DNA of 64,000 nucleotides from Carboxylicivirga linearis (lineage in GTDB: Bacteria > Bacteroidota > Bacteroidia > Bacteroidales > Marinilabiliaceae). Shown piece by piece: positions 57,807 to 62,329 of the stretch. The DNA is taken from positions 124,001 through 188,000 of the forward strand of contig NZ_JAGUCO010000007.1 of the NCBI RefSeq assembly GCF_018271995.1. The letters are read 5' to 3'. The translations under genes and the position numbers were made by a program. Below the pieces are notes generated by a model. The model was not told the DNA's origin. It saw nothing but the letters and a program-made list of their open reading frames with translations, and made no database searches. The stretch's first letter is position 1. Each line of letters opens with the position of its first letter.

Positions 57807-58580
57807 TTACTCAATATTCTTACGTACCATATTTAAAAACTCCTGCAATCCTTCTGTATCTTTCTTTTCAATTAAACTCAGAAGATGTTTTAGTTGAAAA
57901 CGAATATTCTCAACCTGCTGATAGGTATATGGGTTAAAAAGGATTTCAGTAAGCAGGTAATCTTCTTCCGACATCAAACCTTTAGCAATATTCATATGCT
58001 TGCTGAAAGTTGTTCCGGGGGCTTTTTGATGTTTCATGCAGGCACCAAAAACCAACGACGAAGCAAAGGGGATAGATAGTGAATACGCAATGGTTTCGTC
58101 ATGCCCGTCGAAGCTATATTCGTGTATATTTAGTTTTAAAGAGCTGAAAAAATCTTTGAAGAAGGCCTTGCCCAGATGATCGCCTTGTGTTATGATGATG
58201 GCATGATGCATGCTTAAATCATTAAGATTGGCAAAGGTAGGACCAAACATAGGGTGGGTGGATACATAGCGATATCCGCTTTGTTCGTAAAATTCCTGTA
58301 ATCCGGTTTTTACCGATGATATATCAGACAGAATGCAGTTTTTAGGTACATAAGGTAATACCTCTTTAAAAGCCGGTAAGGTATATTTTAATGATACTGC
58401 ATTAATTAAGATCTCAGGAGCAAACTCTGTAATCTCTTCAAATTTAGTGAGACGTTGTGTATTAAATACGTATCGAAGTTTGCTCATATCGCGGTCAAAA
58501 ATGGCAACTTCATGATCGAGACAAAGGGCATCGGTTAACCAGGTACCCATTTTTCCTGCTCCTAGAATACAGATTTTCAT
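57807..58580 (-). CDS. tyrA: Prephenate dehydrogenase
   Basis: This protein is about 257 aa from ATG 58580. It has the NAD-binding ICILGAGKMGTWL, ISSVKTGLQEFYEQ and the substrate-site THPMFGPTFANL with the conserved His-Pro-Met-Phe-Gly-Pro. A helical C-terminal dimerisation domain follows. It oxidatively decarboxylates prephenate to 4-hydroxyphenylpyruvate for tyrosine; the ACT domain is absent. A TTG at 58589 extends the frame but overlaps a TATATTTG -7 box (58594-58587, minus strand). tyrA therefore has its own promoter and a near-leaderless start, 318 bases beyond the rest of the Phe/Tyr operon. Confidence 0.88.
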   Translation of the reverse strand: MKICILGAGKMGTWLTDALCLDHEVAIFDRDMSKLRYVFNTQRLTKFEEITEFAPEILINAVSLKYTLPAFKEVLPYVPKNCILSDISSVKTGLQEFYEQSGYRYVSTHPMFGPTFANLNDLSMHHAIIITQGDHLGKAFFKDFFSSLKLNIHEYSFDGHDETIAYSLSIPFASSLVFGACMKHQKAPGTTFSKHMNIAKGLMSEEDYLLTEILFNPYTYQQVENIRFQLKHLLSLIEKKDTEGLQEFLNMVRKNIE

Positions 58581-58586
58581 AATTTT

Positions 58587-58594
58587 CAAATATA
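58587..58594 (-). promoter_or_regulatory. -7 box six bases before the tyrA start
   Basis: On the minus strand TATATTTG is followed by AAAATT and ATG 58580. It shows tyrA can be transcribed independently of pheA. Confidence 0.6.
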
Positions 58595-58855: not shown

Positions 58856-58891
58856 CAAATAAGGAGTAGTGATTTTACTACTCCTTATTTG
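58856..58891 (-). terminator. 15-bp hairpin after the DAHP synthase gene
   Basis: CAAATAAGGAGTAGT (58856-58870) pairs perfectly with ACTACTCCTTATTTG (58877-58891) around a 6-base loop. It begins eight bases past the stop. The T-tract on the minus strand is poor, so termination strength is uncertain. Confidence 0.65.
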
Positions 58892-58898
58892 TATTGAT

Positions 58899-59996
58899 TT
58901 ATTTCTTCGCCAATTCTTTATTCATCACAATATTCTGACGATTGATTGATTCCTCATGAATGTGTTCGAATACTTTCACCACAAATTCAGGATTCAATTT
59001 GTTTTCATCAGCCTGATTACGACGTTTATTCATAATCTCATCATAACGACGAGTTTGAAGAATTGTAATGTTATTATCGTATTTGTACTTACCAATAGCT
59101 TCAGAAATCTTCATTCGTGAGCTTAAAGTCTCTAATAACTGTTGGTCGAGCAAGTCGATTTTTTTACGTAACTCATCCAAAGTAACACGTGGCTTTTCAC
59201 CAATGGCCGATTGACGAACAACCAAATCATCCATTATTAACTTCAGATGATCAGGTGTTACCTGCTGACTTGCATCACTCCATGCTTTTTCAGGACACAT
59301 ATGCGATTCAATAATCAAACCGTCGAAATTAAGGTCCATGGCCTCCTGCGATACCTCTGCAATCATTTCGCTCTTACCTGAGATATGACTAGGGTCGGTG
59401 ATGATAGGTAAATTAGGAATACGACGACGAAGCTCAATAGGAATCTGCCACTCAGGATTATTACGGTATTTGGTTTTATCGTAAGTACTGAATCCACGGT
59501 GGATAGCACCCAAACGCTTAATACCTGCCTGGTTGATTCTTTCCATGGCACCAATCCATAGCTCTAAATCCGGATTTACCGGGTTTTTAACCAACACAGG
59601 AATGTCAACACCTGCTAATGCATCTGCTACTTCTTGTACAGCAAATGGATTAGCTGTAGTACGAGCGCCTACCCAAAGCATGTCCACACCAAATTTCAAG
59701 GCTTCGTATACATGATGAGCAGTAGCCACCTCAATACTGATGAACATGCCTGTTTCTTCCTTCACCTTTTTCAACCAAGGCAAACCAACAGTTCCAACGC
59801 CTTCAAAAGCACCTGGACGAGTACGAGGTTTCCAAATTCCTGAACGGAATATTTTCACTCCCTGAGCAGCTAATTGTTTAGCTGTAGTCAATACTTGTTC
59901 TTCAGTTTCGGCACTACAAGGGCCTGCAATTAACATAGGACGCTCCAGTTTGTATCCTGGTAATTCCAATGGTAGTAAATCCAGTTTATTTTCCAT
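58899..59996 (-). CDS. Bifunctional 3-deoxy-7-phosphoheptulonate synthase / chorismate mutase
   Basis: This 365-aa protein has an N-terminal class-I-beta DAHP synthase (MLIAGPCSAETEEQV, FRSGIWKPRTRPGAFEG, AIHRGFSTYDKTKYRN, ITDPSHISG, about residues 15-260). It is fused to a C-terminal AroQ chorismate mutase (LDELRKKIDLLDQQLLETLSSRM...IGKYKYDNNI, about 275-360). It therefore catalyses the first step of the shikimate pathway and the chorismate-to-prephenate step. The fusion allows feedback by prephenate, as known for such proteins. The start lies two bases from the aminotransferase stop, indicating translational coupling. Confidence 0.93.
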   Translation of the reverse strand: MENKLDLLPLELPGYKLERPMLIAGPCSAETEEQVLTTAKQLAAQGVKIFRSGIWKPRTRPGAFEGVGTVGLPWLKKVKEETGMFISIEVATAHHVYEALKFGVDMLWVGARTTANPFAVQEVADALAGVDIPVLVKNPVNPDLELWIGAMERINQAGIKRLGAIHRGFSTYDKTKYRNNPEWQIPIELRRRIPNLPIITDPSHISGKSEMIAEVSQEAMDLNFDGLIIESHMCPEKAWSDASQQVTPDHLKLIMDDLVVRQSAIGEKPRVTLDELRKKIDLLDQQLLETLSSRMKISEAIGKYKYDNNITILQTRRYDEIMNKRRNQADENKLNPEFVVKVFEHIHEESINRQNIVMNKELAKK

Positions 59997-59998
59997 GG

Positions 59999-61168
59999 TT
60001 ATTGTTTTATGATTTTTTCTATTCTTTCTTTTGCTTCAATTAATACTTCTTGTTTGGTACAAAGGCTAATGCGAATGTATCGCTTACCTGTTTCACCAAA
60101 TATCAGTCCCGGAGTAATAAATACATCTACTCCGTATAAGATCTTGTCTGATAGCTCACCACTATCCTTATATTTATCAGGAATGCGGGCCCATACAAAC
60201 ATACCTGTTTGGTTGGTGTCGTAAGTGCATTCCAGTATATCCATAATTTCCTGAACTAGTACTCTTCGTTGTTTATACTCTTCGTTAACGGCGCTGTACC
60301 AGTTGCTGTTTAGTTGCAAAGCTTTAACCGCTGCCAGTTGAAGAGGTTTAAACATTCCCGAGTCCATATTGCTTTTCACTCTTAAAATATATTGAATGAA
60401 AGTAGGGTTGGAGAAAGCTGCGCCTACACGCCAGCCTGCCATATTGTGTGATTTACTCAACGAATTCAGCTCAATGGCAATATCTTTGGCACCCTCGATA
60501 GATAAAATACTCTGTGGTGAATCATTCAAGATAAAGCTATATGGATTATCGTTGCAAATAACGATGTTGTGTTTTTTACCAAAAGCAATTACTTTCTCGA
60601 AAAAGCTGATACTTGCATTCGCTCCTGTTGGCATGTTTGGATAGTTAATCCACATCAATTTCACATTGCTTAGATCCTGTTTCTCCAGTTCATCCAGATT
60701 AGGTAACCAACCGTTGTTTTCGTCCAGGTTATAGGGAATAAGAGTTGCCTGAGCAATCTTGCTTGCCGAAGCATAGGTTGGGTAGCCCGGATTGGGAACC
60801 AAAACACCATCCCCCGGATTAAGGAAGGCAAGAGTGATATGCATAATACCTTCTTTAGAGCCCATCAAAGGAAGAATCTCAGTATTTGCATCAGTCTTTA
60901 CACTGTAATATCTTTCGTACCAGCTGCTGAAAGCCTCTCTAAGTTCAGGAATACCAACATAGCTTTGGTAACCATGATTGGTTTCTACCTGACTTTGTTG
61001 AGTTATTTCTTCAATAACTTCCGGAGCAGGAGCCATGTCTGGATTTCCAATTCCTAAGTTAATAATAGGTTTACCTTCTTTTCTTAGCTTATCCAGTTCC
61101 TTCAATTTGATAGAAAAGTAGTATTCTTCTACCTGATTAATTCTATCAGCAGGTTGTATATTATTCAT
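59999..61168 (-). CDS. PLP aminotransferase of the Phe/Tyr operon
   Basis: This 389-aa class I aminotransferase starts at ATG 61168. It has NLGIGNPDMAPAPEV, PLMGSKEGIMHI, VPNPGYPTYAS, ICNDNPYSFIL and the Schiff-base Lys in LNSLSKSHNMAGWRVG, with terminal RIS Arg in RYIRISLC. The sequence style is that of LL-diaminopimelate or aspartate aminotransferase-like enzymes. Its place between pheA and the DAHP synthase gene indicates it transaminates phenylpyruvate and 4-hydroxyphenylpyruvate, or prephenate (inference). It overlaps the pheA stop by eight bases, so it is translationally coupled. Confidence 0.85.
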   Translation of the reverse strand: MNNIQPADRINQVEEYYFSIKLKELDKLRKEGKPIINLGIGNPDMAPAPEVIEEITQQSQVETNHGYQSYVGIPELREAFSSWYERYYSVKTDANTEILPLMGSKEGIMHITLAFLNPGDGVLVPNPGYPTYASASKIAQATLIPYNLDENNGWLPNLDELEKQDLSNVKLMWINYPNMPTGANASISFFEKVIAFGKKHNIVICNDNPYSFILNDSPQSILSIEGAKDIAIELNSLSKSHNMAGWRVGAAFSNPTFIQYILRVKSNMDSGMFKPLQLAAVKALQLNSNWYSAVNEEYKQRRVLVQEIMDILECTYDTNQTGMFVWARIPDKYKDSGELSDKILYGVDVFITPGLIFGETGKRYIRISLCTKQEVLIEAKERIEKIIKQ

Positions 61169-62060
61169 GATTTGCAATTTCTATAGTATTACCGTTAGGT
61201 ATTGGGTATGATTGTTTACCTTTTTCGTATTCACCTAAAATCTTTAATTTTTTGCACAAAGGTCGTATAGCATCCAATGATTGTAAATAGCGTTTATAAT
61301 CATTAAATGTAAGATCGATGTAAAATAAATACTCCCACTCTTGTCCTACAATGGGTAAAGATTGAATTTTGGTTAAGTTTATGTTATAAAAACTCAGAAC
61401 GGTTAATACCTTCGATAAACTTCCTTCATCATGAGGTAATGAAAATACCAGTGATGATTTGTTAATACGGTCTTGCTCCAATAGTTCATCTGTTTCGGTT
61501 AATGCTCTGTCCGTTATCACTAAAAAGCGAGTATAATTACGTTTATTGGTTTCTATACCGCTGGCAATAATATTCAGGTTATACATTTCGGCAGCTAATT
61601 CCGATGCAATGGCAGCAATACCAGTTCGCTTTTCTTCGGCAATTAGTTTAGCACTTAATGCGGTGTCTTCAGAGGCAATTAATTTAATGTGAGGGTAATC
61701 TTTAAAGAACTCCTCACACTGAGCCAATGCCATTGGATGTGAATGAACCTCACGAATATCCTCAATAGATTGTCCGGGTAAGGCCATTAACTGGTGTTTA
61801 ATGCGTAATTTATATTCGCCAATAATAACCAGATCGCTATCCTTTAGCATGGTGTAGTTTTGCAAGATACTTCCTACCAAAGTATTCTCAATAGCAATAA
61901 TCCCGTAAATGGATCTATCCTCTTTTAATGTTTGAAACAAATCAGGGAAGGTAAGGCACGGAATCATCTCAAGATTATCCTCTTCAAAATAAGCTTTGGC
62001 AGCTATTTCGTGGTTTGCGCCCGGCCAACCTTGTATTGCTATTTTTTTCTTTGGTTTCAT
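61161..62060 (-). CDS. pheA: Prephenate dehydratase
   Basis: This 299-aa protein has a prephenate dehydratase domain (about 5-185: IAIQGWPGANHEIAAKAYF, YGIIAIENTLVGSI, VHSHPMALAQCEEF, ASEDTALSAKLIAE, and the catalytic-region TRFLVITDR). A C-terminal ACT regulatory domain follows (about 200-285: LVFSLPHDEGSLSKVLTVLSFYNINLTKIQSLP, with the ESRP-type Phe-binding segment changed). It converts prephenate to phenylpyruvate. It is the first structural gene of the operon; its mRNA is preceded by a Phe/Tyr-rich leader peptide and an intrinsic terminator. Confidence 0.93.
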   Translation of the reverse strand: MKPKKKIAIQGWPGANHEIAAKAYFEEDNLEMIPCLTFPDLFQTLKEDRSIYGIIAIENTLVGSILQNYTMLKDSDLVIIGEYKLRIKHQLMALPGQSIEDIREVHSHPMALAQCEEFFKDYPHIKLIASEDTALSAKLIAEEKRTGIAAIASELAAEMYNLNIIASGIETNKRNYTRFLVITDRALTETDELLEQDRINKSSLVFSLPHDEGSLSKVLTVLSFYNINLTKIQSLPIVGQEWEYLFYIDLTFNDYKRYLQSLDAIRPLCKKLKILGEYEKGKQSYPIPNGNTIEIANHE

Positions 62061-62081
62061 TGTTAATGTATGTATATGAAA

Positions 62082-62105
62082 AAACCCGCCTTGCGAGGCG
62101 GGTTT
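62082..62105 (-). terminator. Attenuator terminator upstream of pheA
   Basis: On the minus strand AAACCCGCC (62105-62097) pairs with GGCGGGTTT (62090-62082), followed by a U6 tract; it ends 20 bases before the pheA ATG. The 5' arm CCCGCCTC (62102-62095) can alternatively pair over eight positions (one G-U) with GAGGTGGG (62150-62143) inside the leader-peptide ORF. That is an antiterminator. Confidence 0.85.
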
Positions 62106-62132
62106 CTATATATTTTAATGTTTTGAATTATC

Positions 62133-62204
62133 TTATAGCGTGCCCACCTCTTTTAGTCTGTTAAAAAAGAAATAATAAAAGCTATAAAAAAAGTTGTGAG
62201 CCAT
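62133..62204 (-). CDS. Phe/Tyr leader peptide of the pheA operon
   Basis: This 23-codon ORF starts at ATG 62204 and stops with TAA at 62135-62133. Its middle reads NFFYSFYYFFFN, giving six Phe and three Tyr codons within ten residues, then RLKEVGTL. This is what a transcription-attenuation leader needs: shortage of charged tRNA-Phe or tRNA-Tyr would stall the ribosome at 62192-62163. That leaves GAGGTGGG (62150-62143) free to form the antiterminator; reaching the stop covers that segment and the terminator forms. It is analogous to E. coli pheL in logic, not in sequence. No Shine-Dalgarno site is evident. Confidence 0.85.
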   Translation of the reverse strand: MAHNFFYSFYYFFFNRLKEVGTL

Positions 62205-62230
62205 TGTTCTGTGTTTTCGTAATTGTGCTA

Positions 62231-62238
62231 CAAATGTA
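62231..62238 (-). promoter_or_regulatory. -7 box of the pheA operon promoter
   Basis: On the minus strand TACATTTG lies about 27 bases before the leader-peptide ATG. It gives a leader RNA of roughly 165 bases ahead of pheA. Confidence 0.7.
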
Positions 62239-62329
62239 GAGAATAATTTTATATTACCAAATTGTGATTGATAAAATGTATTAAAATTTAAATAGTAAGT
62301 TAAGGCTTTAATTTACTAATAGATTCTTA

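Follow-up and report, generated by a model that had tools for sequence, protein, structure and literature searches.

The closest described counterpart of the pheA leader considered here is E. coli pheL-pheA (Rfam Phe_leader, RF01859), where a leader ORF with a run of Phe codons and a set of alternative hairpins likewise stand upstream of pheA. The codon run of pheL is Phe-only. Mixed codons are found in the leader of E. coli ilvGMEDA, in which a single leader carries codons for several products of the operon, in that case branched-chain and not aromatic amino acids. The ilvGMEDA operon is listed as attenuated in PMC1183508. Within Bacteroidota, strong clues for leader-peptide attenuation 5′ of amino-acid operons were reported for Flavobacterium psychrophilum, and the structured 5′ elements of its pheA and hisG are present in other Flavobacteriaceae genera (PMC9723704). 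The section of that paper dealing with the pheA element, which matches our locus in phylum and gene, provides neither a leader sequence nor codon content nor a pairing model. A transcriptome paper on Bacteroides thetaiotaomicron mentions short ORFs that recall leader peptides (PMC7366714), and the Bacteroid-trp motif (RF01692), whose connection with trp we read from its name, is tabulated as a Bacteroidetes cis-regulatory candidate (PMC2864571). Before presenting their case in Firmicutes, the authors of a 2010 survey of premature terminators knew of no leader-peptide system demonstrated beyond Proteobacteria and Actinobacteria (PMC2965389).

We analyzed a 64,000-nucleotide stretch of Carboxylicivirga linearis DNA (contig NZ_JAGUCO010000007.1), hereafter the window. 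Directly 5′ of pheA on the minus strand, positions 62240-62061 hold a promoter box, a short ORF, a terminator and a pairing alternative to that terminator (Table 1). We propose, with a probability of about 0.92, that this region is a ribosome-mediated transcription attenuator for a Phe/Tyr operon and senses the supply of both amino acids. The proposal is based on the sequence, on class-wide conservation and on covariation in two pairings (2:3 and 3:4), together with modelled folding states; from these we infer that the leader is translated, that ribosomes stall in it and that the outcome responds to Phe and Tyr. The leader ORF runs from an ATG at 62204-62202 to a TAA stop at 62135-62133 and mixes Phe and Tyr codons, unlike pheL: in its stretch FFYSFYYFFF, nine of ten codons are Phe or Tyr. 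The terminator stem is formed by 62106-62096 and 62091-62081, with T6 at 62084-62079. All elements listed in an earlier note on this DNA (the box, the 23-codon ORF with its Phe/Tyr run, GAGGTGGG, CCCGCCTC, the hairpin and T6) are present in the sequence. That note gave the spacing between the terminator and pheA as 20 bases; the T tract is actually 18 nt from the pheA ATG at 62060.

Table 1. Features of the pheA leader and of the genes downstream of it in the window
Feature	Position	Strand	Basis
-7 promoter box TACATTTG	62231..62238	minus	sequence; TAnnTTTG, Bacteroidota sigma-A type
Leader ORF, 23 codons, MAHNFFYSFYYFFFNRLKEVGTL, with Phe/Tyr run	62133..62204	minus	sequence
Candidate segment 1, Tyr/Phe codons able to pair with segment 2	62165..62175	minus	folding
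Segment 2 GAGGTGGG, 5′ side of antiterminator, inside leader ORF	62143..62150	minus	sequence, pairing tests
Segment 3 CCCGCCTC, 5′ arm of terminator and antiterminator partner	62095..62102	minus	sequence, pairing tests
Intrinsic terminator (segments 3:4) with T6	62079..62106	minus	sequence, family alignment
pheA, prephenate dehydratase; ACT-domain match below cut-off	61161..62060	minus	Pfam
Class I/II aminotransferase; family matches do not fix the substrate	59999..61177	minus	Pfam
DAHP synthase/chorismate mutase fusion	58899..59996	minus	Pfam
15-bp perfect hairpin just 3′ of the DAHP synthase gene; may separate tyrA	58856..58891	minus	by eye
tyrA, prephenate dehydrogenase; transcript membership uncertain	57807..58589	minus	Pfam

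Neither the codon run nor the folding of the window leader is matched by shuffled sequence. Nine Phe/Tyr codons in 12 were reached in 0/2000 dinucleotide shuffles of the 300 nt upstream (four shuffles gave eight), and the folding energy of -36 kcal/mol (z -6.2) in 0/200 shuffles. Over 128 loci, a leader ORF with at least 6 of 12 Phe/Tyr codons was found in 94, compared with 0/128 for the antisense strand and 63/2560 for shuffles. TAnnTTTG, the -7 box consensus as stated in PMC9723704, precedes the leader start by no more than 60 nt in 67 of 95 leaders; mononucleotide shuffles predict 4.6 such leaders.

Pfam matches above cut-offs assign the four downstream products to prephenate dehydratase, class I/II aminotransferase, DAHP synthase/chorismate mutase and prephenate dehydrogenase. 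The claim that these genes make Phe and Tyr, in keeping with the leader codons, is borne out by the dehydratase, DAHP synthase/chorismate mutase and dehydrogenase matches. NCBIfam matches shown for the four proteins all lie below cut-offs; hence they do not fix the substrate of the aminotransferase, whose best match there is LL-diaminopimelate aminotransferase. The place of tyrA in the window transcript is uncertain, since 309 nt separate it from the DAHP synthase gene and the 15-bp hairpin (58891-58856) lies in between. We also compared a set of named relatives, the best 80 of 581 candidates, which are near the query and nearly all Bacteroidales. Here, the order pheA, aminotransferase, DAHP synthase, tyrA on one strand is found in 57 of 80, and of the 59 loci having both of the last two genes, 53 have tblastn matches to them that lie no more than 146 nt apart. 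A leader ORF is present in 71 of the 79 of these best 80 that have upstream sequence; examples are MKSFTYAYYFFFYFYFSNKVEREFVCIK in Bacteroides xylanisolvens XB1A and MNVFTFTYYFFFYFYFSQKVEREFVCIK in Bacteroides fragilis S82.

A PheA match was found in 44 of 60 relatives searched and in 338 of 392 genomes of the phylum. Our locus sample (n = 130) joined the 44 loci from relatives with 86 more, picked at about one per genus among the matches listed; 128 had enough upstream DNA, and L014 and L040, with no upstream sequence, were dropped. Taking at least 6 of 12 codons as the definition of a Phe/Tyr-rich ORF, we found a leader ORF 5′ of pheA in 13/13 loci of the same genus (window included), 18/18 of the same family, 16/16 of the same order and 43/45 of the same class. 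Attenuation would be refuted, the earlier note had argued, if relatives kept the hairpin without such an ORF; in fact 90 of the 92 same-class loci having upstream sequence, window included, carry it, all except L086 and L092. In other classes the ORF was found in 6 of 36 loci. The six (L050, L071, L075, L078, L088 and L097) possibly acquired the operon together with its attenuator by transfer; the other 30 have no leader.

An intrinsic terminator between the ORF and pheA was found by script for 93 of 96 leaders. Hairpins are visible by eye in the three leaders without one under the script rule (L069, L085 and L095). Counts given below for 90 leaders leave out L024 (run out of frame), L103 (the script picked another hairpin, starting 12 nt past the run) and L111 (a long distance between leader and hairpin), all three of which are included in the swap test of segment 2 and the terminator arm on 93 loci; codon counts (n = 94) leave out L024 and L111. 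The Phe/Tyr run of L024 is out of frame with respect to its neighbours and lies amid T runs on a draft contig, so either a sequence error or decay may account for it. Phe and Tyr codons are both present in 93 of 94 leaders. Trp codons occur in 28 of 94, and we do not press Trp as a general third signal.

The pairing of GAGGTGGG (62150-62143) with CCCGCCTC (62102-62095), which the earlier note had claimed to be mutually exclusive with the terminator, is upheld by covariation and folding alike. Between lineages, the terminator arm takes the forms CCCGCCTC, TCCCGCTC, AGTCCCGGC, AAGCCTCG, AAGTCTCG and AATCCTGAT, and segment 2 varies with it (in turn GAGGTGGG, GAGCGGGA, GCCGGGACT, CGAGGCTT, CGAGACTT and GTCAGGATT). 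The native 2:3 score averages 20.48 over 93 loci versus a mean of 14.36 and a maximum of 15.49 in 2000 re-pairings. Loci outside the window's family (n = 62) give 20.19 versus a permuted maximum of 15.71. Tested locus by locus against shuffles of its own interval, the 2:3 pairing stands out in 79 of 93 loci at ≤0.05 and in 57 at ≤0.005, while in 14 it is not above the shuffles at 0.05; for the window it was matched by 0/200 shuffles. Related loci share arms, and hence the native arm ranks first among the 93 in only 25 loci.

In the alignment of the window's family (28 sequences), 95.5% of 222 cells of the 2:3 helix are paired, with 10 double-change cells in two pairs, nine of the ten in one pair; two such pairs were reached in 70/500 column shuffles. 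For the 3:4 helix, 94.8% of 308 cells are paired, with 18 double-change cells in five pairs. Compensatory changes among aligned relatives, the check proposed with the original claim, are thus found in the family for both pairings. Slid controls for the two helices were lower on every measure, and shared ancestry remains in all these statistics, whether the control is by permutation, sliding or shuffling. The class-wide swap test carries more weight than the family covariation. Judged from these sequence comparisons, the 2:3 and 3:4 pairings both look to be under selection. Their predicted energies in the window are balanced (2:3 -16.5 versus terminator -16.0 kcal/mol).

A third, protecting helix, missed in the earlier note, may form at the 5′ side. 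In a single-sequence fold the Tyr/Phe codons at 62175-62165 can pair with AAAAGAGGTGG (62154-62144), and the RNAalifold consensus of the family contains seven pairs of this 1:2 helix. Within the family, 90.3% of its cells are paired, 0/298 are double-change cells and covariation is not above shuffles, which could be because one side is fixed by coding. The strongest duplex of segment 2 with the ORF, taken over 90 loci, reaches -8.24 versus -6.60 kcal/mol when permuted (0/3000 as strong). In the sample of duplexes inspected, many use the first codons of the ORF and not the Phe run; the best one in the window likewise involves codons nearer the ORF start (GGCTCAC..., about 62202-62196). Since native duplexes are stronger than permuted ones, segment 2 probably has some upstream partner, for which the Tyr/Phe run and the first codons are the candidates. 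An outer helix (62189-62181 with 62139-62131) was kept out of the model: 64.3% of its cells are paired in the family and its ends are mostly unpaired. Its covariation score in the family is above 499 of 500 shuffles.

In the mechanism that we propose, a ribosome would initiate on the 23-codon leader. When charged tRNA-Phe or tRNA-Tyr is scarce, it would stall in FFYSFYYFFF and leave segment 2, GAGGTGGG, free to pair with segment 3, CCCGCCTC, while segment 4 has yet to be transcribed. The terminator would therefore be blocked and RNA polymerase would read into pheA. With ample Phe and Tyr, the ribosome would reach the stop and cover segment 2, 3:4 would form and transcription would end before pheA. 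If the leader is not translated, its upstream part can pair with segment 2, which may also favour the terminator. These bacteria have been described as having no Shine-Dalgarno sequences (PMC9723704).

We modelled the folding of 90 leaders transcribed to the end of segment 3, masking only the ribosome footprint, which we assumed to cover 17 nt behind the A-site and 12 nt ahead of it. The modelled probability of 2:3 averages 0.97 (window 1.00) when a ribosome is stalled in mid-run and 0.76 (window 0.95) when there is none and segment 4 has yet to emerge. A ribosome at the stop brings it to 0.00 in the 64 of 90 leaders, the window among them, where the footprint lies over segment 2. Once the leader is full-length, and again with no ribosome on it, segment 2 is predicted to pair mainly upstream (mean 0.72) and hardly with segment 3 (0.05). 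Segment 2 lies at a median of 11 nt past the last Phe/Tyr codon, and 782 of 815 Phe/Tyr codons are far enough upstream for a stall to leave it uncovered. A stall at the last such codon would leave it free in 60 of 90 leaders and partly covered in 30.

Simple masking fails to explain shut-off in the remaining 26 of 90 leaders, because a ribosome at their stop has moved well beyond segment 2, which then lies behind it and outside the footprint. If pairing across the ribosome is allowed, their modelled probability of 2:3 with a ribosome at the stop averages 0.70. Leaders of this kind include L016, L022, L027, L028, L038, L076, L096 and 19 others. Going further, we tentatively consider, at somewhat worse than even odds, an ancestral dual Phe/Tyr sensor common to the class, to which Trp codons were added in some lineages and in which these 26 leaders hide segment 2 otherwise. 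Under such a dual sensor, a stall at either amino acid would open the shared Phe/Tyr operon.

The 2:3/3:4 switch by itself would suit any sensor, so the terminator might be governed by a T-box, a riboswitch or an RNA-binding protein and the Phe/Tyr ORF be incidental. However, no Rfam family, T-box included, scores at gathering level in any part of the window, 90/92 same-class loci retain the ORF with codons matching the operon, and segment 2 follows the last Phe/Tyr codon at the short median distance given above; another sensor is thus highly improbable. That same conservation of the ORF would fit a functional small hydrophobic peptide, with the terminator a plain one upstream of pheA. Yet leader peptides vary in length (10 to >30 residues) and at the C-terminus while the Phe/Tyr run stays, and the terminator, placed between the ORF and pheA, co-varies with the segment just past the run. 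We find this reading barely credible.

A long and very aromatic run could also point to nascent-peptide arrest, in which the peptide would stall its ribosome upon a free metabolite and not upon uncharged tRNA. The leaders do not resemble a fixed arrest motif, however: Phe and Tyr change their order from leader to leader, with S, N, T and G interspersed. We regard arrest as very unlikely, and sensing of charged tRNA by a translating ribosome as the reading that the leaders favour.

Such an attenuator resembles the E. coli Phe leader in form, and the Phe_leader model (RF01859) indeed matches over its full length at 62200-62076, scoring 37.2 bits against a gathering score of 55. The match does not discriminate, because a plain terminator of the same genome (6550-6466) reaches 35.2 bits; we did not assign the leader to this family, and the match is likeness of form, not proof of family. 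Among 20 other loci tried with Phe_leader, nine gave sub-gathering matches of at most 39.3 bits, and in 13 named loci no Rfam family reached the gathering score. Bacteroid-trp (RF01692) had no match in the C. linearis genome, while the control genome, Bacteroides ihuae, was matched. The Bacteroides sRNA BTnc231 was considered as a terminated leader and set aside, its matches being weak (16.0 and 28.2 bits versus 80.4).

The comparative study of attenuation in bacteria by Lopatovskaya et al. 2010 may cover this phylum. It is cited in PMC4833913. The passages of PMC1262725 and PMC6429828 that we consulted hold nothing on pheA of this phylum, and a literature search at the level of titles and the starts of abstracts, with subscription journals mostly outside its scope, returned no pheA leader in the phylum besides PMC9723704. 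The earlier note had called such control little described; this is a fair statement, while undescribed would be too strong, since the F. psychrophilum pheA element has been briefly reported (PMC9723704). Added here are the class-wide spread, the mixed Phe/Tyr codons and the covariation. The mechanism itself is textbook, and the value of the case is in its breadth, the mixed codon content and the puzzle of the 26/90 leaders. Our data indicate that aromatic amino acid synthesis in much of the class is under a type of control familiar chiefly from Proteobacteria; members of the class with a pheA leader include Bacteroides, Parabacteroides, Alistipes and Prevotella/Segatella records. If the attenuator works, close coupling of transcription and translation would be needed at these leaders. 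For annotators, the window and the 13 named loci offer a short ORF and a leader RNA that Rfam does not capture at gathering score.

The pheA leader apparently belongs to a group of such leaders in this genome, since hisG, trpE and ilvD (found by Pfam) also have upstream leader ORFs with matching codons, followed by hairpins seen by eye. A hairpin and T run, again read by eye, come after both the trpE ORF (MNLITKNTGWWHHLILSTRS) and the ilvD ORF (MKFNLTLVLDIIIILLVIIS). Upstream of hisG (616719) there are tandem His leaders, MTNCIHHHHHLNLQTR and MNNKNHHSVHHFHANPQG, each followed by a terminator-like hairpin, the second of which was recognized by eye only. By script, two hairpins are found in nine and one in five of the same-genus hisG loci (n = 14). 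Two His-rich ORFs are present in 12 of 14 same-genus genomes, and a single ORF in five of six loci from other genera.
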